DNA of 64,000 nucleotides from Kineosporia sp. A_224. Lineage in GTDB: Bacteria > Actinomycetota > Actinomycetes > Actinomycetales > Kineosporiaceae. A program made the translations under genes and the position numbers. Positions 40,683 to 54,814 of this stretch are shown here, one piece after another (within the stretch, counting starts at the first letter, position 1; each line of letters opens with the position of its first letter). The notes under the pieces were generated by a model. That model was given only the letters and a program-made list of their open reading frames with translations, made no database searches and was not told where the DNA came from. The DNA lies in the NCBI RefSeq assembly GCF_002198655.1, contig NZ_MWLN01000191.1:62001-126000 (forward strand), in the 5' to 3' direction.

Positions 40683-42377
40683 CTACAGGTGGTAGAGCTG
40701 CTGCAGCGGGGCGCGCTCGATCGGCGGCATGTGCAGCTGGGCTCCGCGGAAGGTCGTCACGCCGGTCGCGGGGTCGACCTTGACCGGTCCGGTGATGCCG
40801 TGGTGCGCCATGGACCCGAGGCTGACGGTGCGGCAGCCCGTGACGGGAACGACCTGGCGACGGGTCGGGATCGGGACTGCCCCGGCTGCGGCTGCTGCGC
40901 CGTTGACGAACAGCAGGGACAGTTCGGCGGCGGTGGCGCCGTGACCGCCGAACTGCGCCCCGAGCACGAGGGGCTGGGCGCCGTCGATGGCGGCGTTCGG
41001 GTCGCCGGTGACTCCCCAGGCGGGGAAGCCTGACTTGAGGACCATCTCGGGCTTGGCGCCGAACATCGAGGGCCGCCAGAGCACGATGTCGGCGATCTTG
41101 CCGGGTTCGAGGCTGCCGACGTACTGGTCGAGTCCGTGGACGCGCGCCGGGTTGATGGTGAGCTTGGCGAGGTACCGCAGCACCCGTGCGTTGTCGTCCG
41201 TCAGGTCGGGCGCCGCGCCGGTGCGACGCTGCAGTGAGGTCAGGGCGCCCGCCAGCCCGAAGGTGCTGCGCCAGTTCTCACCGGCCCGTCCCATTCCTTG
41301 GGCGTCGGACGATGTGACGGGGATGACCCCGAGGTCGTGCAGGAGGTTCTCGGCGCCCATGGTGACGGCACGAACCCGGTCGTGGGTGAGTGCGGCGTCG
41401 CCGGGCAGGTCCGCACGCAGGCCGTGCACGTGGGCGATCATGGCGTGGTGCTCGGCCACGGCGTCGCGGCCGTAGGGCAACGTCGGGTTGGTGGAGGACG
41501 CCAGGACGTGGGGCACGCCGGCGAGGCTGAGCACGTCGGGTGTGTGGCCGCCGCCGCATCCTTCGACGTGGTAGGCGTGGATGGCTCGGCCGTCGAGCAC
41601 GGCGAGCGTGTCGTCGACCGTCAGCCCCTCGTTGAGGCCGTCGGTGTGGACCGCGACCTGGACGTCGTAGTCCTCCGCGACGGTGAGTGCGGTGTCGAGG
41701 GTGCGCAGGTGCGCGCCGGTGTCCTCGTGGACCTTGAAGCCGCAGACACCGGCTTCGAGCGCCTCGAGGAGCGGGTCACGCCGGCTCGAGGATCCGCGGC
41801 CGAGGATCCCGACGTTGACCGGGTAGTCGTCGAAGGCTGCGTAGCCGGTGCGAAGGACCCAGGCCGAGCCGACGCCGACGCCCCAGAACGGGCCGATCTC
41901 CTGACCGATGATGGTGGTGACGCCGGAGGCGAGCTCGGCCTCGCACACCCGCGGGGACAGCAGGTGCACGTGCGTGTCGACCCCTCCCGGGGTGGCGATC
42001 AGGCCTTCCCCGGAGACGACCGCCGTTCCGCTGCCGACGACGATGTCGACGTCGTCCATCGTGTCGGGGTTGCCCGCCTTGCCGATGCCGACGACGCGTC
42101 CCTCACGGATGCCGATGTTCGTGGCGCGGATGCCGAGAACGGGGTCGAGGAGCAGGACGTTGCTCACCAGCAGGTCGCAGGACCGGGCGGTCCGTACGGC
42201 CTGCAGGCCGATGCCGTCCCGGCCGGTCTTGCCGAAGCCGAAGAGGACCTCGTCGGCGTGCCGTCCCCGGTCGTCGCGCTCGACGCGGACGACGAGACCG
42301 GTGTCGCCGAGGACGACTCGGTCGTCGAGTCCGGGGCCGTACGCGCCGGCACGGGCGTGGGCGTCGAAGTGCGTCAT
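40683..42377 (-). CDS. ureC: Urease alpha-subunit-like amidohydrolase (UreC-like), divergent
   Basis: 564 residues with the full dinickel site. H136 and H138 sit in DTHVH, the carbamylated K215 and H217 in GFKVHEDTG, and H244, H270 and D358 follow. The catalytic H318 and R334 are also present. The flap cysteine next to H318, normally in a CHH-type motif, is replaced by V317 (HVHGL), and the surrounding flap is different. All four urease-type domains are present. ATG 42377 overlaps the fused UreAB gene by 4 bp. No UreD/E/F/G genes are nearby, and the neighbours process agmatine and polyamines. I infer a urease-like enzyme that may cleave a ureido compound, such as N-carbamoylputrescine, rather than free urea. 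Confidence 0.85.
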   Translation of the reverse strand: MTHFDAHARAGAYGPGLDDRVVLGDTGLVVRVERDDRGRHADEVLFGFGKTGRDGIGLQAVRTARSCDLLVSNVLLLDPVLGIRATNIGIREGRVVGIGKAGNPDTMDDVDIVVGSGTAVVSGEGLIATPGGVDTHVHLLSPRVCEAELASGVTTIIGQEIGPFWGVGVGSAWVLRTGYAAFDDYPVNVGILGRGSSSRRDPLLEALEAGVCGFKVHEDTGAHLRTLDTALTVAEDYDVQVAVHTDGLNEGLTVDDTLAVLDGRAIHAYHVEGCGGGHTPDVLSLAGVPHVLASSTNPTLPYGRDAVAEHHAMIAHVHGLRADLPGDAALTHDRVRAVTMGAENLLHDLGVIPVTSSDAQGMGRAGENWRSTFGLAGALTSLQRRTGAAPDLTDDNARVLRYLAKLTINPARVHGLDQYVGSLEPGKIADIVLWRPSMFGAKPEMVLKSGFPAWGVTGDPNAAIDGAQPLVLGAQFGGHGATAAELSLLFVNGAAAAAGAVPIPTRRQVVPVTGCRTVSLGSMAHHGITGPVKVDPATGVTTFRGAQLHMPPIERAPLQQLYHL

Positions 42378-43147
42378 CGCACGTCCCCCGGTCCGGACAT
42401 CGCGTGGGCCGCGGCCGCGGCGGCGGCGGCGGCGGACTGGGGGCGGTCGAGGTCGAGGAAACCCCAGGCGCGAGCCCGCTTCAGAGCAGCGTCCCGTGCG
42501 CCGGGGGCATCCAGCGGCCCGTCGACGAGCCCGGAGAAGCCGACGACGACCCGCGCCCCGCGCACGGGCACCAAGGACACGGTCGTCGTCGTCCCCGGCT
42601 CGAACCGCATGTGGGTCCCCGCAGGGACGTCGAGGTGCATCCCGTACGCCGTGGCACGCGAGAACCTGAGCCGGGCGTTGCTCTCGAAGAAGTGGAAGTG
42701 GCTGGTCACCGAGATGGGGACCGACGCCGTGTTGAGCACCTCGACCTCGACGCGCTCCGCGCGACCGGCGGCGTCCTGCGAGCGGGTGCCCGGCGCTTGT
42801 GCCGCAGCCACGATGGCGCCCGGCATGTCGTCACGGTCCGGCACCGGCCCGAAGGGCTCGCTCACCACGACCAGCCGCGAGCCGTCGGCGAAGACGGCCT
42901 CCACCGATACCGCCCGGACGACGTAGGGCACCTCGGGAAGCACCTGGGAGCCGGTCAGCACTGCGCGCCCTTCAGCGACCGCCTCGACGTGGCGAGCCCC
43001 TCGACGTGCCGCCTCGCAGACAGCGTCGGCGACCACAGCGGTCGCCTCCGGCACGTTCAGCAGGACGCCCGCAGCGACCCGGCGACGAGCGAGCTCGGCG
43101 GCGGAGAACAGCAGCAGCCGGTCGCGCTCGGTCGGTGTGAGGTGCAC
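42374..43147 (-). CDS. ureAB: Fused urease gamma-beta subunit (UreAB)
   Basis: 257 residues. Residues 1-100 are UreA-like (LTPTERDRLLLFSAAELARRRVAAGVLLNVPEA ... VEAVFADGSRLVVV), and about 115-235 are UreB-like (SHFHFFESNARLRFSR, RFEPGTTTTVSLV). Such fusions are known. The Ala-rich tail (about 235-250) is unusual. GTG 43147 follows a GAGAGAGG site. It is transcribed divergently from the agmatine deiminase gene, with a TTGACYGAA-TT-TTCAGTCA dyad in its promoter, and feeds UreC. Confidence 0.88.
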   Translation of the reverse strand: MHLTPTERDRLLLFSAAELARRRVAAGVLLNVPEATAVVADAVCEAARRGARHVEAVAEGRAVLTGSQVLPEVPYVVRAVSVEAVFADGSRLVVVSEPFGPVPDRDDMPGAIVAAAQAPGTRSQDAAGRAERVEVEVLNTASVPISVTSHFHFFESNARLRFSRATAYGMHLDVPAGTHMRFEPGTTTTVSLVPVRGARVVVGFSGLVDGPLDAPGARDAALKRARAWGFLDLDRPQSAAAAAAAAAHAMSGPGDVR

Positions 43148-43261: not shown

Positions 43262-44398
43262 ATGAGCAGCTCGATCACCACCGGTGACCCGGAGACGGGC
43301 ATCCAGACTGGCTACCGTGCAGAGCTTGCGCCGCACGGTGTTTCGGCAGTCCCTCGGCGCCCGCGGCCGGACGTCGACCCTCGCCTGGCGGACTACCGCA
43401 TGCCCGCTGAGTGGGACGTCCACGAGCGCACGCTGGTGACCTGGCCCACGCGAGCCGACCTGTGGGCCGGCGCGTTCTCCGACGCCGAGCACGACTACGC
43501 GGCGGTCGTGCGGGCCGTCGCGCAGTTCGAGCCGGTCACGGTAGTGGCGCTGCCCGGTCGCCGGTCCCGGGTCGTCGACCTGTGCGGCGCGGACGTCGAC
43601 GTCCTGGAGGCGCCGGTCGACGACTCGTGGATCCGGGACAACGGCCCGCTCGTCGTGCGACGCGCGGACGGGCACCGCCTCGGGGTCGACTTCGGCTTCA
43701 ACTCCTGGGGCCGAAAGTTCCTCCCGTACGACGCCGACGCGGGCCTCGCAGCCCGGGTCCTGGACCACCTGGGCATCGAGCGGGTCGGTGTCGACATGGT
43801 CCTCGAGGGGGGCAGCATCAGCGTGGACGGCGAGGGGACTCTTGTCACGACGGCCCAGTGTCTGCTGCACAGCAACCGCAACCCGGGGTTGTCCCAGAGC
43901 GACGCGGAAGCCGTCCTGCAGGAGGCGCTCGGTGTCCGCCGTGTGCTGATGCTGCCGTTCGGGCACCTGGACGACCGGCACACCGATGGGCACGTCGACG
44001 GCGTGTGCACCTTCACCGCCCCGGGACACGTCCTGGTCCAGACCTGCGGCGACCCCCGCAACGTCAACCACGAGGCGATGGCCCGCAACCTGCGCTACCT
44101 GCGGGACGTCCCCGACGCGTCTGACCGGTTCGTCGCGGTGAACGGCTTGGACCTGTTCTCCGCCGTCACCGTCGAGGGCGTCGAGGACTACGTCTCCTAC
44201 GCGAACTTCTACATCGTCAACGGTGCGGTCATCGTCCCGCTCAGCGGGAACCGCGACGACGACGAGCGGGCCATGGGCGTCATCGGCGGATGTCTTCCCG
44301 GCCGTCAGGTCGTCGGCGTGCCCGGCGCGGTCATCGCCTTCGGCGGTGGAGGCCCGCACTGCATCACGATGCAGATCCCCGCCGCGGAGGCCCGATGA
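43262..44398 (+). CDS. aguA: Agmatine deiminase (cytosolic)
   Basis: 378 residues without a signal peptide. Family motifs in order: MPAEWDVHERTLVTWPTRAD, DDSWIRDNGP, the EGGSISVDGEGT stretch, RNPGLS, DGHVDG and the catalytic Cys367 in GGGGPHCITMQ. The guanidine-group-modifying enzyme turns agmatine into N-carbamoylputrescine and ammonia. It starts the operon deiminase-potA-potD-potBC-TetR, with the stop overlapping the ATPase start by 4 bp. A nitrilase-type carbamoylputrescine amidase (AguB) is absent from the cluster. Confidence 0.88.
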   Translation: MSSSITTGDPETGIQTGYRAELAPHGVSAVPRRPRPDVDPRLADYRMPAEWDVHERTLVTWPTRADLWAGAFSDAEHDYAAVVRAVAQFEPVTVVALPGRRSRVVDLCGADVDVLEAPVDDSWIRDNGPLVVRRADGHRLGVDFGFNSWGRKFLPYDADAGLAARVLDHLGIERVGVDMVLEGGSISVDGEGTLVTTAQCLLHSNRNPGLSQSDAEAVLQEALGVRRVLMLPFGHLDDRHTDGHVDGVCTFTAPGHVLVQTCGDPRNVNHEAMARNLRYLRDVPDASDRFVAVNGLDLFSAVTVEGVEDYVSYANFYIVNGAVIVPLSGNRDDDERAMGVIGGCLPGRQVVGVPGAVIAFGGGGPHCITMQIPAAEAR

Positions 44399-45636
44399 GC
44401 GGCGGCCGTTCGCCCGACGTGGTCACCGTCACGCCTGGCGATGCGGGACGACCCACGGGACAGGGAGCCGGGTCTGCGCCGGAGGACGGCGAGGCGCCCG
44501 GGAGCGGGCGCGGCGCCGTCCGGCTCGAGCGACTCACCAAGCGGTACCCGGGCACGACCGCGGTGGACGACCTGTCGCTGACCGTGGCCGCCGGGGAGTT
44601 CGTCGCCCTGCTCGGCCCCTCCGGCTGCGGCAAGTCCACCACCTTGCGGATGTTGGCCGGGCTCGAGCAGCCCGACGCGGGCGTGGTGCGCGTGTCCGGT
44701 GTCGACGTCACCAGAACCCCGGCACACCGCCGGGACATCCACACCGTGTTCCAGTCGTACGCGCTGTTCCCGCATCTGGACGTCGCGGACAACATCGCGT
44801 TCCCGCTGCGGCAGCGGGGGCTGGCCCGCTCCCAGGTCGCCGCGCGGGTTCAGGAGGCCCTCGACGTGGTCCGGTTGCCCCACGCCGCGAAGCTGTCCGT
44901 CACCAGCCTGTCGGGCGGGCAGCAGCAGCGCGTCGCCCTGGCCCGTGCAGTCGTCGACCGCCCCAGCGTCCTTCTGCTCGACGAGCCGCTCTCCGCGCTC
45001 GACCGGGCACTGCGGCAGGCGATGCAGGTCGAGCTACGGCTGCTGCAGCAAGAACTCGGGATCACCACGGTCCTGGTCACCCACGACCAGGAGGAAGCCC
45101 TCAGCCTCGCCGACCGGATCGTCGTGATGTCCGAGGGCCGCATCGTCCAGCAGGGCACCGCCGAGCAGATCTACGACCACCCGGCCACCCTGTTCGCGGC
45201 ACGCTTCGTCGGGGAGAACAACGAGCTGCCCGGGCACAGCGACGGCACGGGCACACTCACGCACCCGGCTGTGACCGCCATCAGCGCCAGCCCCACCGTC
45301 GCAGGCCCGGCTCTCGCACTCGTCCGTCCTGAGCACGTAAGGGTCACCGAGCTCCCGGCCGCCGCACCGCACCACCCGCGACCGGAACCCGGGGCAGCAG
45401 ACCACGTCCCGGACGCCGTCCCCGGCGTCAACACCGTCTCCGGGGTCGTCCGCGGGGCCAGCGTCGCGGGGATGTCCTCCCTCGTCCTGGTCCAGGTGGA
45501 CCACGACACCACCGTCCTCGCCCGCGTCCCTCGCGACGGCCGGCGGCTGCCTTCCGCCGGCCAGAGCGTGCAGTGCTCGTGGCAGGCCCAGCACGTGCGT
45601 ATCTTCCCCCTCCAGGACGGAGCCCACCGGCCATGA
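44395..45636 (+). CDS. potA: Polyamine ABC transporter ATP-binding protein (PotA-like)
   Basis: 413 residues. After a 35-residue disordered start come Walker A GPSGCGKST, signature LSGGQQQ, Walker B LLLDEPLS and the switch His in VTHDQEEAL. A C-terminal TOBE domain follows (ALVRPEHVRV ... GVVRGASVAGM). The TOBE domain and VGENNELPG are typical of PotA/spermidine-type importers. Start ATG 44395 overlaps the deiminase stop. Confidence 0.88.
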   Translation: MSGGRSPDVVTVTPGDAGRPTGQGAGSAPEDGEAPGSGRGAVRLERLTKRYPGTTAVDDLSLTVAAGEFVALLGPSGCGKSTTLRMLAGLEQPDAGVVRVSGVDVTRTPAHRRDIHTVFQSYALFPHLDVADNIAFPLRQRGLARSQVAARVQEALDVVRLPHAAKLSVTSLSGGQQQRVALARAVVDRPSVLLLDEPLSALDRALRQAMQVELRLLQQELGITTVLVTHDQEEALSLADRIVVMSEGRIVQQGTAEQIYDHPATLFAARFVGENNELPGHSDGTGTLTHPAVTAISASPTVAGPALALVRPEHVRVTELPAAAPHHPRPEPGAADHVPDAVPGVNTVSGVVRGASVAGMSSLVLVQVDHDTTVLARVPRDGRRLPSAGQSVQCSWQAQHVRIFPLQDGAHRP

Positions 45637-46808
45637 CCGGACCCACCGCACCCCGACGGCCGAGCACCGGCCTGACCCGCCGCCAGTTCGGCACCTCGCT
45701 CGCACTGCTCTCCGGGGGCCTGCTCTCCGGCGGGCTGCTGTCGGCCTGCGGGTCGAACGGCTCCAAGGGCACGTCCGCGGCCGCCACCAGCTACCCGACG
45801 GCCGTCTCCCGGGGATCGACGCTGCACGTCTACTCGTGGGCGGACTACATCTCCCCGGACGCCATCAAGTCGTTCCAGGACAAGACCGGCGTCACCGTCC
45901 AGGTCGACACCTACGACTCCGCCGAGCAGGCCGTGGCCAAGCTGCGCGTCACCCAGGGCACGAGCGGGTACGACCTGGTCGTCATGGACGGTTCCTACGT
46001 CCCCCAGCTCAGCAGCGCCGGCGCCCTGCTCGCATGGGACAAGACCCGGCTGCCGTCGATGGAGGGACTGTCGCAGACCTTCCTCGCCAAGGCCTGGGAC
46101 CCCACGAACACCTACGCCATCCCGAAGTCCGGCGGCTCCACCGGGTACGTCTGGGACAGCGCCGTCGTCACCGGCGCCATCACGACATGGGACGACTTCT
46201 ACGCCCGGTTCGCCGACGCGGCCGTGGACGGCCGTACCTCGGTCATCGACGGCGCGCCCTCGTTCATCTCGTCCTACTTCTGGGGTCACGCGGTCTCCGA
46301 CCAGACAACGGACCCGGCCCAGTACCAGGCCGCCGAGAAGTACTTCACCGAGAAGGTGCTGCCGCACCTGGCCCAGTTCAACTCCTACCCGCGTGCCGAC
46401 CTGGCCAAGGGCACGGTCGTTCTCGCGCAGGCCTTCACCGGCGACGCCCGTGGCGCGCTCATCGACGGACCGAAGACGCTGAAGTTCGCTCTCGGCGGCC
46501 CCAAGAGCGACCTGTACGTCGACCACTGGGTGCTGCCGAACGGCACGAAGTCCCCGGCCGCCGCGCACGCCTTCGTCGAGCACGTCCTCCAACCCGCCAA
46601 CGCGGCCGCCGAGACGACCTTCCACGGCTACTTCACCGGGGTCACCGCCTCGAAGGACCTGCTCCCCGCCGACATGCCGCACAAGGAGATCATCTTCTTC
46701 GACGAGGGCGTTCCCGCCGACCACTTCGAACCGGCGACGGTCACCCCGGCGGCCCGCAAGCTCTCTCTGGCCACCTTCGAACGGCTCAAGGCGCTGGCGG
46801 CCAAATGA
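45633..46808 (+). CDS. potD: Polyamine-binding lipoprotein (PotD-like)
   Basis: 391 residues. The N-terminus carries both a twin-arginine motif (LTRRQFG) and a lipobox LSAC, so export is probably by Tat with lipidation. The mature part is a PotD/PotF-type binding fold (LHVYSWADYISPDAIKSFQDKTG, YDLVVMDGSYV). The first residues match polyamine-binding proteins, so spermidine, putrescine or carbamoylputrescine are candidate ligands. Overlaps both neighbours by 4 bp. Confidence 0.86.
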   Translation: MTGPTAPRRPSTGLTRRQFGTSLALLSGGLLSGGLLSACGSNGSKGTSAAATSYPTAVSRGSTLHVYSWADYISPDAIKSFQDKTGVTVQVDTYDSAEQAVAKLRVTQGTSGYDLVVMDGSYVPQLSSAGALLAWDKTRLPSMEGLSQTFLAKAWDPTNTYAIPKSGGSTGYVWDSAVVTGAITTWDDFYARFADAAVDGRTSVIDGAPSFISSYFWGHAVSDQTTDPAQYQAAEKYFTEKVLPHLAQFNSYPRADLAKGTVVLAQAFTGDARGALIDGPKTLKFALGGPKSDLYVDHWVLPNGTKSPAAAHAFVEHVLQPANAAAETTFHGYFTGVTASKDLLPADMPHKEIIFFDEGVPADHFEPATVTPAARKLSLATFERLKALAAK

Positions 46809-48631
46809 GAACCACCACCGCCCGCGGCCCCCACCGCACCGCTGGTGGACGCCTGCGGACCGCGGGCCTGCCCGGACGGGGCCGCCCACGGCCGACCAGG
46901 AACCTGGCCGGGCTGCCGGCCTTCGTCTGGCTCGCCGCGTTCTTCGTCCTGCCGGCCGGGCTCGTCGCCGTCTACAGCCTGGGCGAGAGCTCCCTGTTCG
47001 GTTCCAGCCCGGTCGACCTCAGCCGACCCACGACCGACCGCTACCAGGAGGCCTTCAGCGACACCTTCCGGATCGTCCTGGCCAACACCCTGCGCCTGTC
47101 CGTGGTCGGCACCACCCTGTGCGTCCTGCTGGCCCTGCCGGTCGCCTACGCGATCGCGACCCGGATCCACGGCCGCTGGCGCTACCTCGTGGTCGCCGCT
47201 GTCGTCGTCCCGTACTGGACGCCGTTCCTGCTGCGCACGTACGCCTGGCGCATCCTGCTCGACGACCGCGGCCCCCTGACGGCCGTCGGCGTCCACGACG
47301 GGTTCGGGCTCCTCGACACCCGCGGCGGCGCACAGCTCGGGGTCGTCTACAACTACCTGCCGCTGGCGATCCTGCCGATCTTCGTCGCACTGGACCGGCT
47401 CGACCCCGCCGTGCGCCGCGCCGGCCGCGACCTCGGCGCCACACCCTGGCGCGTCTTCTGGCAGGTGACGCTGCCTGCCGTCCGGCCCGGCCTGATCACC
47501 GCCGCCCTGCTGGTCTTCGTCCCGCTCATGGGCGACTACGTCACCCCGAGCGTGCTCGGCGGCGTCCGCGCCACCGTCGTCGGCAACTTCGTCTACGACT
47601 CCTTCCTCGCCGGGCAGGACTGGGCTCTCGGCGCGGCCGCAGCCGTCATCCTCGTCGGTGTCGTCGCCGCCCTGCTGGCGCTGGCCTGGGTGCTGTCCGC
47701 GCTGGCAATCCGGGTCCTACGCATCGTGCGGCCGCTCGATATCACCGCGCGCCTGCGCGCCCGGACCACGACGCCGGAACGTCCCATCGCGGGCAGCGGG
47801 TCCGAGCGACGCGAACGTGACCTGTGGGGGGTGGCGCTGCGCGGCTACACCGTGCTGCTCGTCGCCTTCCTGTGGCTCCCGATCCTCACGATCGTCAGCT
47901 CGTCGTTCAACACCGGCAACACCCTCGCGGTGTGGACGGGGTTCGGGACCCGTTGGTACACAGCCGTCCCGCACAACGACGCGCTGCTGTCCTCGATCGC
48001 CGTGTCGCTGCGCGTCGCTGCGCTCTCGACCGTCGTGGCCGTTCTGATCGGCACCCTTGCCGGCATCGCTCTGGTCCGTGCCGGACGTGCGACCCGCACC
48101 GGCCTCAACGGACTGCTCGTCCTGGTGTTCACCACCCCGGAGATCGTCACAGCCGTCGGCCTGCTGGTGCTGTACGTCGCGGCAGGGACCATCGCCTCCG
48201 ACGGCACCGCACGACTGGTCATCGCGCACTCGGTGATCTCCGTGACCGTCGTCGCGTTCGTCGTCCGGGCCCGTCTCGCAGGTCTGGACCCACGACTGCC
48301 CGACGCCGCCGCCGACCTCGGCGCGGCCCCCGGCGCCGTCCTGCGCAAGGTCCTCCTGCCGCTCACGCTGCCCGCCGTCGCCGCCGGCGCGATGCTCGCC
48401 TCGACGACGTCCCTGGACGACGTCGTCACCTCGAGCATGCTCGGCAACGTCGGCACAACGACCCTGCCGGTCTACATCTACTCCACGCTGCGTACCGGCC
48501 TGAAGGGAGACGCTGCCGCCGCAGGTGTGCTTCTCACCTGCCTCGTGGCCCTCTCCACCGCCCTCGTCGTCGCCCTGCTCGGCCGCCGCCGCCAAGGCGC
48601 AGCGGCGTTCCGCAGCCTCCTCGGCGGCTGA
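46805..48631 (+). CDS. potBC: Fused polyamine ABC permease (PotB-PotC)
   Basis: 608 residues with two permease halves in one chain. Half 1 (about residues 38-310) is PotB-like with the EAA-loop-like segment RRAGRDLGATPWRVFWQVTLP. Half 2 (about 345-600) is PotC-like with DAAADLGAAPGAVLRKVLLPLTLP. Each half has about six helices. PotB and PotC are normally separate, so this is a fusion. ATG 46805 overlaps PotD's stop by 4 bp. Confidence 0.85.
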   Translation: MRTTTARGPHRTAGGRLRTAGLPGRGRPRPTRNLAGLPAFVWLAAFFVLPAGLVAVYSLGESSLFGSSPVDLSRPTTDRYQEAFSDTFRIVLANTLRLSVVGTTLCVLLALPVAYAIATRIHGRWRYLVVAAVVVPYWTPFLLRTYAWRILLDDRGPLTAVGVHDGFGLLDTRGGAQLGVVYNYLPLAILPIFVALDRLDPAVRRAGRDLGATPWRVFWQVTLPAVRPGLITAALLVFVPLMGDYVTPSVLGGVRATVVGNFVYDSFLAGQDWALGAAAAVILVGVVAALLALAWVLSALAIRVLRIVRPLDITARLRARTTTPERPIAGSGSERRERDLWGVALRGYTVLLVAFLWLPILTIVSSSFNTGNTLAVWTGFGTRWYTAVPHNDALLSSIAVSLRVAALSTVVAVLIGTLAGIALVRAGRATRTGLNGLLVLVFTTPEIVTAVGLLVLYVAAGTIASDGTARLVIAHSVISVTVVAFVVRARLAGLDPRLPDAAADLGAAPGAVLRKVLLPLTLPAVAAGAMLASTTSLDDVVTSSMLGNVGTTTLPVYIYSTLRTGLKGDAAAAGVLLTCLVALSTALVVALLGRRRQGAAAFRSLLGG

Positions 48632-48764: not shown

Positions 48765-49418
48765 GTGACCGACCGCCGCAGCGAGCTCCTCGACGCAACC
48801 ATCACCGTCATCGCCCGACGCGGCGTACGCGGCCTGCGCGTCCAGGAGGTCGCCGCCGAGGCCGGCGTCTCGGTCCCCCTCATCTACCACTACTACGGCA
48901 ACCGCGAGGGCCTGCTCACCGCAGCCCTGGCAGCCGTCAACGACCGGGCAGACCGCTACTCCACCGAAGCGGCCCACCCGGCAGCCACACCACGAGAAGA
49001 GCTCACCGCACGACTCCTCGGCGAGCTCCAGGACACCCCCGAGGTCCACACCACCTCCAGCGCCTGGGGAGAGCTGCGCTGGGCCTCCGTCTTCGACGAC
49101 ACCCTGCGGCCGGACGTCGCCCGGCTCACCGCCGAATGGGTCGACCACATCGCCGCACTCATCCAACATGTCCAGGACCACGAGAAGACCTCCGACCCCG
49201 ACGGACGCCACCCCCACGAGACCGCCGAGATCCTGGTCGCCCTCGTCGAAGGGCTCTCCGGTCGCTGGCTCACCGGCGCGATCGACGTGCCGCACCTGCG
49301 TCATCTGCTGGAGCTCGCCATCACCCGTGAGCTTCCGCCGCCACCGGCCCCGCGCAGAGCCGGCGCCCGGCGCAGCCCGACGAAGCACCCAGAACCACCG
49401 CGAAGCAGCGCCCGCTGA
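48765..49418 (+). CDS. TetR-family regulator of the agmatine/urease module
   Basis: 217 residues from GTG 48765. The N-terminal HTH is LLDATITVIARRGVRGLRVQEVAAEAGVSVPLIYHYYGNREGLL, and the C-terminal tail is Pro/Arg-rich. It is 133 bp after the fused permease and 80 bp before the second deiminase gene, on the same strand. It is the natural candidate to bind the two TTGACTGAA dyads at 43169-43244. Confidence 0.85.
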   Translation: MTDRRSELLDATITVIARRGVRGLRVQEVAAEAGVSVPLIYHYYGNREGLLTAALAAVNDRADRYSTEAAHPAATPREELTARLLGELQDTPEVHTTSSAWGELRWASVFDDTLRPDVARLTAEWVDHIAALIQHVQDHEKTSDPDGRHPHETAEILVALVEGLSGRWLTGAIDVPHLRHLLELAITRELPPPPAPRRAGARRSPTKHPEPPRSSAR

Positions 49419-49497: not shown

Positions 49498-50685
49498 ATG
49501 CCCGGACCCGGGAGCGACCTCCCCCTCACCAGGCGGTCGCTCATCGGTGCCCTCCTCACTGCACCCGCGCTGGGGAGCCTCAGCGCCTGCGCGACCCCCT
49601 CGAGTTCCCCCGGGGGCAACGACGGCGACGCTGAGGGTGAGGGACACAGCAGCCTGAGCCGTCCTGAGGCACCGACCCCGGCCGACCGCCCCCGGATGCC
49701 CGACGAGGGCAGCGCGCACTCCCGCACCTGGATGGCCTTCGGAGCCAGCGCGGAGATCTGGGGCGCGGACCTGCTGGAGCAGGTCCGATCCGACCTGGCC
49801 GCCGTAGCCCGAGCGATCGCGCGGCACGAGCCGGTCACCGCGCTCGTGCGCCCGCACGAACGGGACCTGGCCCATGACTACCTCGGCAGCAAGGTCACGC
49901 TGCTCGACGCCCCGCTCGACGACCTGTGGATCAGGGACAGCGGACCCACGTTCGTCACCGGTCGCACCGGCGTCGCAGCCGTCGACTTCAACTTCAACGG
50001 CTGGGGGGACAAGCAGGCCCACACCGCCGACGCCGCGGTCGCCGCTCGGGTCGCGTCGGCCGCCGGGTGCCCACGGCACCGCAGCGAACTGGTCCTCGAA
50101 GGCGGCGCCCTCGAGGTCGACGGGCACGGCACCGCGATCATCACCGAGAGCTGCGTCCTCAACGACAACCGCAACCCCGGTTGGTCCCGGACGGACGTCG
50201 AGGCCGAGCTCGCCGACACGCTCGGAATCGATCACGTCATCTGGCTGCCCGGCATCGCCGGGCAGGACATCACCGACGGCCACACCGACTTCTACGCGCG
50301 CTTCGTCCGGCCAGGCGTCGTCGTCGCAGCCCGCGACGACGACCCGGCCTCCTTCGACCACGACGTCACCCGGCGGCACCTCCGGATCCTCACCGACGCC
50401 CGCGACCGTGCAGGACGGCGACTGCAGGTCGCGGAGCTCCCGGCACCGCGGGACCTGCGCCCCGAGATCCTCACCGACGACTTCGCAGCGGGATACGTGA
50501 ACTTCTACGTGTGCAACGGTGCCGTCATCGCCCCGAGGTTCGGCGACGCTCGCGCCGACGCCGCGGCCGCGGCCACTCTCCAGAGGCTCTACCCGGACCG
50601 GCAGGTCGCCCAGGTCAGGATCGACGGCATCGCCGCCGGCGGCGGCGGGATCCACTGCTCAACACAACAGCAGCCGCACGCCTGA
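49498..50685 (+). CDS. Exported agmatine deiminase-like lipoprotein
   Basis: 395 residues. The N-terminus is a Tat lipoprotein signal: twin arginine in LTRRSLIGALL, then a lipobox LSAC. A Gly/Asp/Glu-rich linker follows. The catalytic domain keeps DDLWIRDSGP, RNPGWS, DGHTDF (an HTD rather than the HVD of the cytosolic enzyme) and the Cys387 motif GGGGIHCSTQQQP. It would deiminate agmatine or a peptidyl arginine outside the cell, with products taken up by the Pot system. Functional placement is inferred. Confidence 0.82.
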   Translation: MPGPGSDLPLTRRSLIGALLTAPALGSLSACATPSSSPGGNDGDAEGEGHSSLSRPEAPTPADRPRMPDEGSAHSRTWMAFGASAEIWGADLLEQVRSDLAAVARAIARHEPVTALVRPHERDLAHDYLGSKVTLLDAPLDDLWIRDSGPTFVTGRTGVAAVDFNFNGWGDKQAHTADAAVAARVASAAGCPRHRSELVLEGGALEVDGHGTAIITESCVLNDNRNPGWSRTDVEAELADTLGIDHVIWLPGIAGQDITDGHTDFYARFVRPGVVVAARDDDPASFDHDVTRRHLRILTDARDRAGRRLQVAELPAPRDLRPEILTDDFAAGYVNFYVCNGAVIAPRFGDARADAAAAATLQRLYPDRQVAQVRIDGIAAGGGGIHCSTQQQPHA

Positions 50686-51380: not shown

Positions 51381-53348
51381 TCAGTGGCAGGCAGCCCCGC
51401 CCTTCGGCGCCGGCGGCGGCACGTCCAGCGACGGGTTCCTGTCGAAGAAGCCCACGGGCTTGAGGTGGAAGCCCACGTAGTCGCAGGGCATGATCGGCCA
51501 GTCCTCGGGCCGTGGCAGGTGGGACGTCCCGAAGGTGTGCCACAGGACGACGTCGGTGTCGAGGAGGTCGCGCTCCGCCTCGACCCAGCGCCCGATGCCG
51601 TCACCGGGGTGCTGGTTCGGGTAGTCACCCGCGGCGTGCAACTCCTCCGGGTGGTACCGCGTGACCCAGACCGGGTGCCGGGCGAACTCCGCACGCTTGG
51701 CGAGGTCGCTGTCGGGGTGGGCGAGCAGCGTCGGGCCGACGAAGGGCACGAGCTTGTAGCCGACGGGCTGCCCGAGCCGGTTGAGGACGCCGGGGTTCAC
51801 GACCTTCCACGTCCTCGCGGTCGCGGCGTTGAGCTCCCGCCGCGACTCCCGCTCGTTGGTGATCGCGACGGGACGGGCGACGATCGCGTTGCCGTACTCG
51901 TTGCCCGGGCCGATCGGCAGGCCGACGGCGTCCACCTCGTAGACCGTGTTGTGCGGTCCGTCGACCTCCAGGTCCAGCCGCATGTTGAACATGTGCTGGT
52001 GGTTGGGCGCGTCGAGCTGCGGCGCGACCAGGGTGCCGAAGAGCGGTGTCTCGCCGGGCGCGACCGCCCGGGTCTGCACGATGCCCGTCAGCTTCGCCTC
52101 GAACTGGATCGTGCCGTCCTGGTAGAAGTACCAGAAGAAGCCGTACTCGTAGTTGCCGATGGTGTGGATCGCGGACACGACGAGCCGCCGCGAGCGCCGC
52201 ACCTCCGCCGCCTCCTGGTAGCGGAAGTTCCAGTGCTTCCAGAGGATCCCGTAGTCCTCCTCGTGCAGGCAGATCGCGTTCCGGATCGTCTGCGGCGTCC
52301 CCGACTCGTCAGCCAGGACCGCGTCGAAGTACCGGATCTCGCCCAGGCAGTCGCAGCCCAGGGAGAGCGACCCCACGGTCTTGCCGAGGTTGTACTCGCC
52401 GGCGTCGAAGACGTTGCGGAAGAAGAAGTCCATGCTCGTGTCGCCGTACGGGACCACCATCTCGCTGATCGCCGCCCGGTGCAGGATCGACCGCCTGCGC
52501 CCCTGGTCGTGGTAGGAGACGTCGCTGAGCACGAGCCCCTCCACGGCGTCGACGTGCACGTGCATCCGCCAGCGCTGCCACTCGATGACGTTGCCGGTGA
52601 CATGGAAGGACGGACCCTCGGGCTGGGTGATCTCCAGCGGGCGCACGTCGTCCCGCAGCGGCCCGACGCTCGCCAGGTCGTAGTTGCCGCTCTCGGGCGG
52701 CAGCGGGATCGGGTCACCCTCCTCGAGGGCGACCACTTCCTTCGCGTCGCAGTCGATGACGAATACGAGGTTGCCGACCGGACGGGCGTACCCGTTGTCC
52801 TCCGCGAACTCACGGACGTACGCGCTCGCCCGGATGACGCGCCGGCCCGCCGGGACGCCGTCCACCGGCAGCGTCCCGGTGGACCAGGGGTCGACCTGCA
52901 GCAGGTCGAGATCGGTCACGCCGCGCCGCACCAGCGCCTCGACGGACGCCGCGTCGGACCGGACGATGTTCTCCAGGTCCATGATCTCTTCGATCATGAT
53001 CGGGGGCTGCACGCCGGGAACGTGCGCCCAGCGCACGACCTCGCCCGTCGCCAGGTCGACCTCGGACTCGTACGTGGCGCCCCGCGCCCGGTCGTACACC
53101 ACGACGAACGCGGCTCGGGGCGTCGGCGAGACGCGGTCCCACGAGCGGACGACCTGCTTGTCCGGGTAGGACAGCCGCACGATCGGGAACCGGGGGGCGG
53201 CGACCTCGGGGTGCGACGAGCGGATCGCCGCCACGGCCGCGACGATCTCGTCCGGGCTCAGCGGGTCGTACGGGTGGTGGACGTCGACCACGGGTGCGCT
53301 CTCCTGCTTCGTCGGGGGCTCGGCGGACCGCACGGTGTCCGGCGTCAC
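51381..53348 (-). CDS. Copper amine oxidase (primary-amine oxidase, TPQ type)
   Basis: 655 residues. The tyrosine that becomes topaquinone is Y400 in TIGNYEY, the catalytic base is D316 in FDAGEY, and copper histidines are H450 and H452 in NHQHMF plus a C-terminal His in GTSHLPRPEDW. No signal peptide is seen, so it is cytosolic. It oxidises primary amines to aldehyde, ammonia and H2O2. The gene follows the amine/amino-acid permease with a 4-bp overlap. The upstream genes suggest an aromatic amine such as tyramine or phenethylamine. Confidence 0.92.
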   Translation of the reverse strand: MTPDTVRSAEPPTKQESAPVVDVHHPYDPLSPDEIVAAVAAIRSSHPEVAAPRFPIVRLSYPDKQVVRSWDRVSPTPRAAFVVVYDRARGATYESEVDLATGEVVRWAHVPGVQPPIMIEEIMDLENIVRSDAASVEALVRRGVTDLDLLQVDPWSTGTLPVDGVPAGRRVIRASAYVREFAEDNGYARPVGNLVFVIDCDAKEVVALEEGDPIPLPPESGNYDLASVGPLRDDVRPLEITQPEGPSFHVTGNVIEWQRWRMHVHVDAVEGLVLSDVSYHDQGRRRSILHRAAISEMVVPYGDTSMDFFFRNVFDAGEYNLGKTVGSLSLGCDCLGEIRYFDAVLADESGTPQTIRNAICLHEEDYGILWKHWNFRYQEAAEVRRSRRLVVSAIHTIGNYEYGFFWYFYQDGTIQFEAKLTGIVQTRAVAPGETPLFGTLVAPQLDAPNHQHMFNMRLDLEVDGPHNTVYEVDAVGLPIGPGNEYGNAIVARPVAITNERESRRELNAATARTWKVVNPGVLNRLGQPVGYKLVPFVGPTLLAHPDSDLAKRAEFARHPVWVTRYHPEELHAAGDYPNQHPGDGIGRWVEAERDLLDTDVVLWHTFGTSHLPRPEDWPIMPCDYVGFHLKPVGFFDRNPSLDVPPPAPKGGAACH

Positions 53349-54814
53349 GACGCCTCACCACCGACACGCGCACCGAGCGTGGCAGCGGGGACCTCGTCGG
53401 CCTCTGACCTGCGGTCGACCACGACAGACCATCCAACCCCGACCAGGATCCAGACGGCCAGCGCCCAGGGCACGGTGTCGAGGGGGCTCGGCGCCTTGTA
53501 GACGGCGCCGAAGACGGCACCCGCGGTCACGAGCGAGCCGGCCGTCGCCGCCACGACGAGCTTCGCGGTGGGGACGTGACCCCACAGGCCCCGCGCACCG
53601 GCCAGGGAGACCGCCAGGTACATCAGGGCGAGCCCTGTCCCGGCGAAGCCCGCCATCCAGGAGAACATCGGCGCCCACTGCGGCTGCTGGACCGCCGGGT
53701 CGGCAGTGGCGCGCGAGAAGACGCCGTCGGTGGCCACGACGAGCACGACCGCGAAGACCGCGACGACGGCCATGACGGCGGCCGCGACCACGGGGGTGCC
53801 GAACCGCGGGTGCACGGAGGCCAGCGGCCGGGGCAGGCGGCCGGACCGGGCCATCGCGAACATGCCACGGGAGCCGGCCACCCCGACACCGATCGCGACC
53901 GCGACGACGTCCAGGATGATGATGACGGCCACCAGGTTGCCGAAGGCCGTGGAGCCGAACTCGCTGCCCGACGCGAGCGCCTGGAGCGGGAAGACGCTGG
54001 CCTTCCACGCCTCGGCGTCCAGCCCGAAGCCGACGGCCTGCGCGTACGCGGTGACCAGGTAGTACAGGCCGACGATCGTCAGCGACCACAGGACGGCGCG
54101 CGGGATGTGCCGCTTCGGGTCGTCGGTCTCCTCGGCGAGGTTCGCCGCCGACTCGTACCCGATGAACATGTTGATCCCGTACAGCACGCCGTACAGCAGG
54201 TCGGCGCCGCTGACCGCGAACGGGTTGAAGGGCTGGGCGGACAGGCTGTCGCCGCCGGCGCCGCCCTTGGCGATGACGTACAGCGAGAACAGCAGGACGA
54301 CGACGGCGGACACCAGCACGAGCGCCAGCTGGGCGCGCACGGACACGTGGACGCCGACCATCACGAAGGTCGCCACCACCGCGACGTACAGCAGGGACAG
54401 CAGCCACCAGCGCACCCCGATGCCGAACGCCGCCAGGAGGAAGTCCTCGGTGAGCCCGCCCAGCACCAGGATCGTCGCCGAGGACAGGACCAGCATCGCG
54501 CCGTAGTAGAGCCAGCCTGCGACGACGCCGACGCGCCGGCCGAAGGTGTCGCTGACGTACTCGTACAACGAACCGCAGAGGTGGATCCGCCGGGCGTACT
54601 GGGCGATCACCCAGCCGGCGCCGAACATGCCGAGGCCGGCGACCGCGAGGGCCACCGGGGTGGCGATGCCGGCGCCGCGGCCCGTGGCGGACAGCCCGAC
54701 GATGAGCGGCAGCAGGGTGGCTACCGAGAACACGGGACCCATGAAGCCGACGGACTGGGCGAGGACGCCGGACAGCGAGACGTTCCGGCGGGTGGCACCT
54801 GGCGCTGTGGTCAT
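53345..54814 (-). CDS. APC-family amino acid/amine permease
   Basis: 489 residues with about 12 hydrophobic helices. The first helix VLAQSVGFMGPVFSVATLLPLIVG and the GYESAANLAEET loop are typical of the APC superfamily. ATG 54814 follows GGAG 6 bp upstream. Adjacent to the copper amine oxidase, it probably imports the amine that the oxidase uses. The gap to the CMD gene is 106 bp. Confidence 0.85.
   Translation of the reverse strand: MTTAPGATRRNVSLSGVLAQSVGFMGPVFSVATLLPLIVGLSATGRGAGIATPVALAVAGLGMFGAGWVIAQYARRIHLCGSLYEYVSDTFGRRVGVVAGWLYYGAMLVLSSATILVLGGLTEDFLLAAFGIGVRWWLLSLLYVAVVATFVMVGVHVSVRAQLALVLVSAVVVLLFSLYVIAKGGAGGDSLSAQPFNPFAVSGADLLYGVLYGINMFIGYESAANLAEETDDPKRHIPRAVLWSLTIVGLYYLVTAYAQAVGFGLDAEAWKASVFPLQALASGSEFGSTAFGNLVAVIIILDVVAVAIGVGVAGSRGMFAMARSGRLPRPLASVHPRFGTPVVAAAVMAVVAVFAVVLVVATDGVFSRATADPAVQQPQWAPMFSWMAGFAGTGLALMYLAVSLAGARGLWGHVPTAKLVVAATAGSLVTAGAVFGAVYKAPSPLDTVPWALAVWILVGVGWSVVVDRRSEADEVPAATLGARVGGEAS

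Follow-up and report, generated by a model that had tools for sequence, protein, structure and literature searches.

To our knowledge, exported agmatine deiminases have so far been known from one operon of Pseudomonas aeruginosa. Its second deiminase, Agu2A' (PA14_48450), appears in the excerpted text of PMC6085387 among the Tat substrates identified by experiment; that text cites Williams and others (2010) and says that no Tat substrate of P. aeruginosa is a lipoprotein. Excerpts of two further papers tie the agu2 operon to the sensing of environmental agmatine and to biofilm, and not to the supply of agmatine (PMC4211729, PMC4287709). For the plant and bacterial enzymes of this type (AIH and AguA; PDB 3h7k, 6nib and 2jer), the partial texts of the literature that we examined describe no exported form. 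The openly licensed literature, searched by title and by the start of the abstract, yielded no paper on actinobacterial lipoprotein agmatine deiminases. A secreted deiminase is also known from Porphyromonas gingivalis, the peptidylarginine deiminase PPAD.

We analysed a 64,000-nucleotide stretch of the genome of Kineosporia sp. A_224, a soil-type actinobacterium (the window), which contains a relative of Agu2A' that we call AguA2. The two proteins, compared with the plasmid-copy sequence of Agu2A', are 47% identical over residues 10–395, a span that includes part of the signal region. Both are PAD_porph deiminases with a twin-arginine export signal at the N-terminus, but Agu2A' is without a lipobox. 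Because Tat export of Agu2A' was already known and that protein has no lipobox, we regard AguA2, on the evidence of its sequence, as very probably a lipid-anchored variant within an already known type of exported enzyme. The idea of an exported agmatine deiminase is itself not new, since Agu2A' already stands in the list of Tat substrates (PMC6085387, excerpt).

The gene sets resemble each other as well, each having a second deiminase and an extracellular solute-binding protein. In the plasmid copy of the agu2 operon the order is deiminase, aguB, solute-binding protein, deiminase, and the PotD-like protein of the window is 27% identical to Agu2C. Where agu2ABCA' has AguB, a member of the nitrilase family, the window cluster has a urease-like pair. 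The window genes run in the order UreC-like and UreAB-like on the minus strand, and then AguA1, PotA, PotD, PotBC, TetR and the exported-type deiminase on the plus strand (Table 1). Domain matches identify the transporter, which the initial annotation had noted as co-located with the deiminase, as a polyamine-type ABC system. The PotB- and PotC-like parts have no stop codon between them and apparently form a fused permease. The N-terminus of the PotD-like protein is of the same kind as that of AguA2, so both look like Tat lipoproteins. A copper amine oxidase gene and an amino acid permease gene (51381–54814, minus strand) adjoin the cluster.

Table 1. Features of the AguA2 locus, in window coordinates.
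Feature	Coordinates	Strand	Basis
AguA2: PAD_porph (agmatine deiminase-like) lipoprotein, predicted to be exported, 395 aa	49498..50685	+	ORF, PF04371 match
Tat signal peptide with lipobox in AguA2: TRRSLIG ... LSAC, predicted lipidated Cys31	49498..49590	+	read from translation
Catalytic pentein domain of AguA2, residues 66-393 (D142, W144, D147, W169, H262, D264, C387)	49693..50676	+	Pfam, residue mapping, model
UreC-like subunit that keeps the nickel ligands but has no flap Cys; proposed hydrolase for the ureide N-carbamoylputrescine	40683..42377	-	domain matches, alignment
UreAB-like fusion of the urease gamma and beta subunits, in divergent orientation to AguA1	42374..43147	-	domain matches
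AguA1: PAD_porph deiminase, no recognisable signal peptide	43262..44398	+	ORF, domain matches
PotA-like ABC ATPase, probably starting near 44392	44290..45636	+	domain matches
PotD-like solute-binding protein, N-terminus LTRRQFG ... LLSAC, start codon uncertain	45573..46808	+	ORF, domain matches
Polyamine-type ABC permeases, PotB- and PotC-like in one open frame	46805..48631	+	ORF, matches
TetR/BetI-type regulator directly upstream of AguA2	48765..49418	+	domain matches; start codon picked by eye

The AguA2 reading frame begins with ATG and has exactly the limits given in Table 1. Its GC content by codon position is 0.73/0.54/0.89, and we rejected a local compositional anomaly because the GC content of the gene (0.723) is close to that of the window (0.721). 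The PAD_porph profile (PF04371) matches residues 66–393 along its entire length (profile positions 1–321 of 321, E = 5.2e-110) and scores 368.1 bits where the gathering cut-off is 25, which makes AguA2 a full-length member of the family. Matches to the NCBIfam agmatine deiminase models stay under the cut-offs–for the equivalog model TIGR03380, AguA2 scores 261.6 bits and AguA1 scores 269.6, against a cut-off of 381.8. The genome has three PF04371 genes: AguA2, AguA1, and a third on another contig. Matches to AguA2 above 49% identity were absent from the 37 other genomes searched, and among 396 genomes drawn from the phylum only one (G526, 64%) has such a match.

We mapped catalytic residues from the Medicago enzyme MtAIH, for which an excerpt of PMC6447857 gives Cys366, His224, Asp226, Asp94, Trp91, Trp125 and Asp89. 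By alignment these correspond to C387, H262, D264, D147, W144, W169 and D142 of AguA2, respectively, so that the catalytic set (D147, H262, D264 and C387) is complete. AguA2 thus shares with plant and bacterial AIH and AguA the pentein fold, the Cys-His-Asp residues, the guanidine-binding Asp and the tunnel Trp. Splitting the aligned homologs at 52% identity gave 90 exported-type rows, AguA2 among them, and 67 other rows, and all seven mapped residues are kept in 90 of the 90. Seven of the 67 other rows carry a signal by the rule described below (L037, L180, two in L181, L182, L077 and L094); the first five of these are more distant exported-type proteins that the split places in the 67-row set. 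Deiminase chemistry is likely for AguA2.

The N-terminus of AguA2, MPGPGSDLPLTRRSLIGALLTAPALGSLSAC, has a twin arginine at R12-R13, then a hydrophobic stretch, and then the residues L28-S29-A30-C31, which we take to be a lipobox. We scored a signal in related proteins wherever RR was followed within 26 residues by an 11-residue stretch with a mean Kyte-Doolittle value above 1.3, which is a simple rule and not a trained predictor. The relatives were the best 80 of 555 confirmed candidates from species genomes. Among these best 80 of 555, at least one deiminase copy has a signal at 69 loci, the best-scoring copy has one at 67, and the lipobox pattern is also matched at 37. The best 80 span four phyla: a signal is seen at 32 of 39 loci in Actinomycetota, 30 of 30 in Pseudomonadota, 5 of 9 in Cyanobacteriota and 2 of 2 in Chloroflexota, and a lipobox at 30, 5, 0 and 2 of these, respectively. 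By pattern, then, exported-type deiminases form a wide, partly known group, and the actinobacterial ones within the best 80 of 555 are mostly predicted to be lipid-anchored. At 11 of the best 80 loci we found no signal by the rule, though in four of these (L022, L033, L036 and L054) RR is present and it is the hydrophobic stretch that is weaker.

The same picture emerges from a tree of 157 rows, built by a quick method under LG+G4 after leaving out hits with fewer than 280 aligned residues and identical sequences. For the tree the signal rule also required an M or V upstream of RR. On the side of the tree that contains AguA2, 83 of 96 rows have a signal (its own row included), compared to 1 of 61 on the other side; put differently, 83 of the 84 signal-bearing rows fall on the AguA2 side. 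Support for the 96 versus 61 split is weak (66), and 91 of the 96 rows form a group with support of 100. The genome of AguA2 encodes one TatC and two Lgt proteins. Given the conservation of the signal, its clustering on the tree, and the TatC and Lgt genes, we consider Tat export and lipid anchoring of AguA2 to be well supported. A chance twin arginine is ruled out by the conservation of the signal among relatives and on the tree.

These results bear on several points in the initial annotation. Its description of a twin-arginine signal and lipobox in front of a complete catalytic domain was accurate, as was its numbering of the catalytic residue as Cys387. Its remark that agmatine deiminases are usually cytosolic holds for one side of the tree, where 60 of 61 rows have no signal, but the other side holds a large exported group. 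It had also called AguA2 a surface enzyme; sequence and conservation support export and anchoring, but the surface in question would be the outer face of the cytoplasmic membrane.

We also made an alignment (A1) of sequences from 47 of the 80 loci together with the three PF04371 proteins of the AguA2 genome. In its rows, the exported-type deiminases of Rhodococcus, Nocardia, Mycolicibacterium and Lentzea are 60–68% identical to AguA2. Some genomes have two copies: at two Nocardia loci (L012 and L024) there are two nearby deiminase genes, one with and one without a recognizable signal. Four Thiothrix and Thiolinea loci (L013, L017, L057 and L070) have a second, distant copy without a signal (34–35% identical), and these signal-less copies still have ITD-x-H, a motif that is typical of exported-group members.

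By profile and fold, AguA2 groups with agmatine deiminases and lies far from PPAD. When a profile made from AguA2 and 49 relatives was searched against PDB, the 11 best matches were agmatine deiminases and their putative relatives (E = 4.3e-98 to 8.6e-49), whereas PPAD matched with an E-value of 5.5e-13. An AlphaFold2 model of AguA2 (mean pLDDT 84, with 264 of 395 residues at 90 or above and low confidence in residues 1–55) retrieved agmatine iminohydrolases first in a fold search (3.9e-36), and PPAD at 5.7e-20. PPAD was not among the 23 phmmer matches of AguA2 with E-values up to 10. The resemblance to PPAD therefore amounts to a similar fold and a weak but significant profile match, with only 18–19% identity by fold, and we rejected a PPAD-like peptidylarginine deiminase as the identity of AguA2. 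Peptidyl arginine, which the initial annotation had put forward as an alternative to agmatine, is a less likely substrate on the same evidence.

One position in the substrate site is unusual. In MtAIH, Asp220 contacts the terminal amine of agmatine (PMC6447857, excerpt). The plant enzymes have Asp at this position and 2jer and 2ewo have an aligned Glu, whereas AguA2 has Ile258. Isoleucine occupies it in 87 of the 90 exported-type rows and valine in the other 3, but the 67 other rows vary (35 Gly, 11 Glu, 10 Ile, 6 Asp, 3 His, 1 Met and 1 Ala). The equivalent of MtAIH Asp89, D142, is kept. Because the other rows vary at this position too, Ile258 weakens the assignment of agmatine without overturning it, and we rejected it as proof against agmatine, given that cytosolic-type homologs are also variable there. 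Agmatine is a plausible substrate from sequence. The usual database label, 'agmatine deiminase family protein', hides both the location and the altered substrate-site residue. If agmatine is the substrate, bacteria can alter polyamine precursors outside the cell; if it is not, the enzyme class is misnamed.

We compared the neighborhoods of the related deiminases. At 19 of the best 80 of 555 loci, a TetR homolog follows the exported deiminase at a distance of no more than about 120 bp, in contrast to its position upstream of AguA2 in the window, an arrangement also seen at L037 and L181. Four of the best 80 (L026, L052, L059 and L077) have the order deiminase, AguB, binding protein, exported deiminase on one strand. 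L056 has deiminase, AguB and exported deiminase, and L082 has the same followed by a binding protein, so that AguB-containing sets of either order total 6 of these best 80 of 555. L010, L016, L025 and L180/L181 each combine an exported deiminase with an ABC importer and a deiminase of the cytosolic type (in L016, the importer was identified by its translations and a match to PotA instead of by Pfam). In L010, an AguA1 homolog is followed on the same strand by an AguB-like nitrilase and a binding protein of the SBP_bac_5 type, and the locus also holds the exported deiminase and a TetR gene. L025 and L180/L181 have UreAB, UreC, AguA1, an SBP_bac_5 importer and exported deiminases. Comparison of these loci thus indicates that the set of a deiminase, an importer or binding protein, and an exported deiminase recurs with different importers. 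Matches to PotB-, PotC- or PotD-like proteins were found at only 9 of the best 80 of 555 loci, some of them kilobases away, and at none of the 19 loci with TetR close downstream. De novo clustering of neighboring genes yielded little, and overlapping frames were merged.

From the gene, its signal motif and catalytic residues, the fold class, the TatC and Lgt genes and the neighborhood, all read directly from sequence, we infer a location for AguA2, a substrate, a direction of flow and a role for the urease-like pair. We lean, with modest confidence, towards AguA2 being a lipid-anchored, Tat-exported member of the agmatine deiminase family that acts outside, most likely on agmatine or a related guanidine, and feeds the Pot importer. 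The folded protein would leave through the Tat pathway, its signal would be removed at Cys31, and the lipidated cysteine would tether the enzyme to the cytoplasmic membrane on its outer side. In this position it would most likely convert external agmatine, or a close guanidine, to N-carbamoylputrescine and ammonia by a pentein Cys-His-Asp mechanism. The neighboring Pot-type ABC importer would bring in this product, or agmatine itself, which cytosolic AguA1 could then convert. Inside, a ureide hydrolase, probably the UreAB/UreC-like pair, would free putrescine.

Other explanations differ from this one in substrate, purpose or location. AguA2 might be an exported deiminase for a different guanidine, larger or less charged than agmatine, such as a peptide-terminal arginine, a derivative of arginine or a natural product with a guanidine group. 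The replacement of the amine-contacting acid by Ile258, nearly fixed in the exported group, fits such a substrate, as does the change of partner importer from the Pot type in the window to SBP_bac_5 (peptide/nickel-type) in L010, L025 and L180. But 35 of the 67 cytosolic-type homologs have Gly at this position, so it is not decisive by itself, and the remoteness of PPAD by profile and fold, together with the presence of AguB in the same gene sets, which points to N-carbamoylputrescine as the product, leads us to regard a different guanidine as rather doubtful.

It is improbable, in our view, that AguA2 serves a mainly non-nutritional purpose outside the cell, where it would clear agmatine acting as a signal or toxin, or liberate ammonia at the envelope. 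Such a role would match the link of P. aeruginosa agu2 to agmatine sensing and biofilm (PMC4211729 and PMC4287709, excerpts), and of the 19 loci with TetR downstream L010 alone has an AguB match, at a distance of about 6 kb, but the window unites an importer, a second deiminase and a candidate ureide hydrolase in the manner of a catabolic set. The N-terminus could also be no working signal, leaving AguA2 as a redundant cytosolic agmatine deiminase. Four Nocardia loci (L023, L027, L031 and L040) lie inside the exported clade without a recognizable signal, so the clade can revert. AguA2 itself, however, has an intact RR motif and lipobox, the tree groups the rows that carry a signal, and Agu2A' is a listed Tat substrate (PMC6085387, excerpt), all of which makes a cytosolic AguA2 very improbable.

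A more elaborate and more tentative form of the preferred reading is a two-compartment salvage of agmatine, with AguA2 outside, a polyamine-type importer, and, instead of AguB, a urease-like enzyme without the flap cysteine that would split the ureide into putrescine, ammonia and carbon dioxide. If true, exported deiminases would serve nutrition, and a relative of urease would act on something other than urea. From its sequence and gene context, the UreAB/UreC-like pair is a candidate for the hydrolysis of N-carbamoylputrescine that AguB would otherwise perform. UreC matches occur in 85 of 297 genomes from the order and divide into a near group with 62–67% identity (19 genomes) and others with 39–47%. 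An AguA homolog is located within about 4 kb of the near-group gene in 12 of the 19 genomes and on another contig in 4, and was not found in 3 of the 19. In the 11 tested genomes that have only the other kind of UreC, AguA is present in three and beside the urease in none. In one genus (g96), near-group UreC is present in 8 of the 9 genomes that have AguA, and AguA is adjacent to it on the same strand in 8 of 8.

We aligned 31 near-group UreC rows, some of them copies of one gene. All of them keep every nickel-ligand position and the catalytic His, but the flap sequence MVCHH, which the two aligned genes of the other kind retain, has given way to sequences that lack Cys; the roles assigned to these residues are those known from urease. 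The distribution of AguB-like nitrilases was also compared. Among five tested genomes that have such a nitrilase and AguA without near-group UreC, the two genes are side by side in two (G587 and G017) and present without being adjacent in three (G032, G063 and G090). In contrast, the nitrilase is beside AguA in none of the 15 near-group genomes that carry one (of which G005 is without AguA). Strict absence of AguB alongside near-group UreC fails as a rule, because 15 of 20 near-group genomes tested have an AguB-like nitrilase elsewhere. A search for AguB in the AguA2 genome gave no match at E = 1e-40, the best hit scoring 71.7 bits against a cut-off of 410.

Among the openly licensed papers listed, judged by title and start of abstract, none proposes a ureide role for urease relatives. 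In the excerpted text of PMC3293853, Streptomyces coelicolor SCO5525–SCO5526 are treated as urea-utilizing ureABC, and SCO5527 as a homolog from the arginine decarboxylase pathway. Near-group UreC also occurs in other settings. One genome has a second copy beside a UreAB-like gene (L170), where an Amidohydro_3 protein was identified. A genome of the same genus has near-group UreC beside a UreAB-like gene with an agmatinase nearby (L171), and because of this agmatinase, urea is a possible substrate at that locus.
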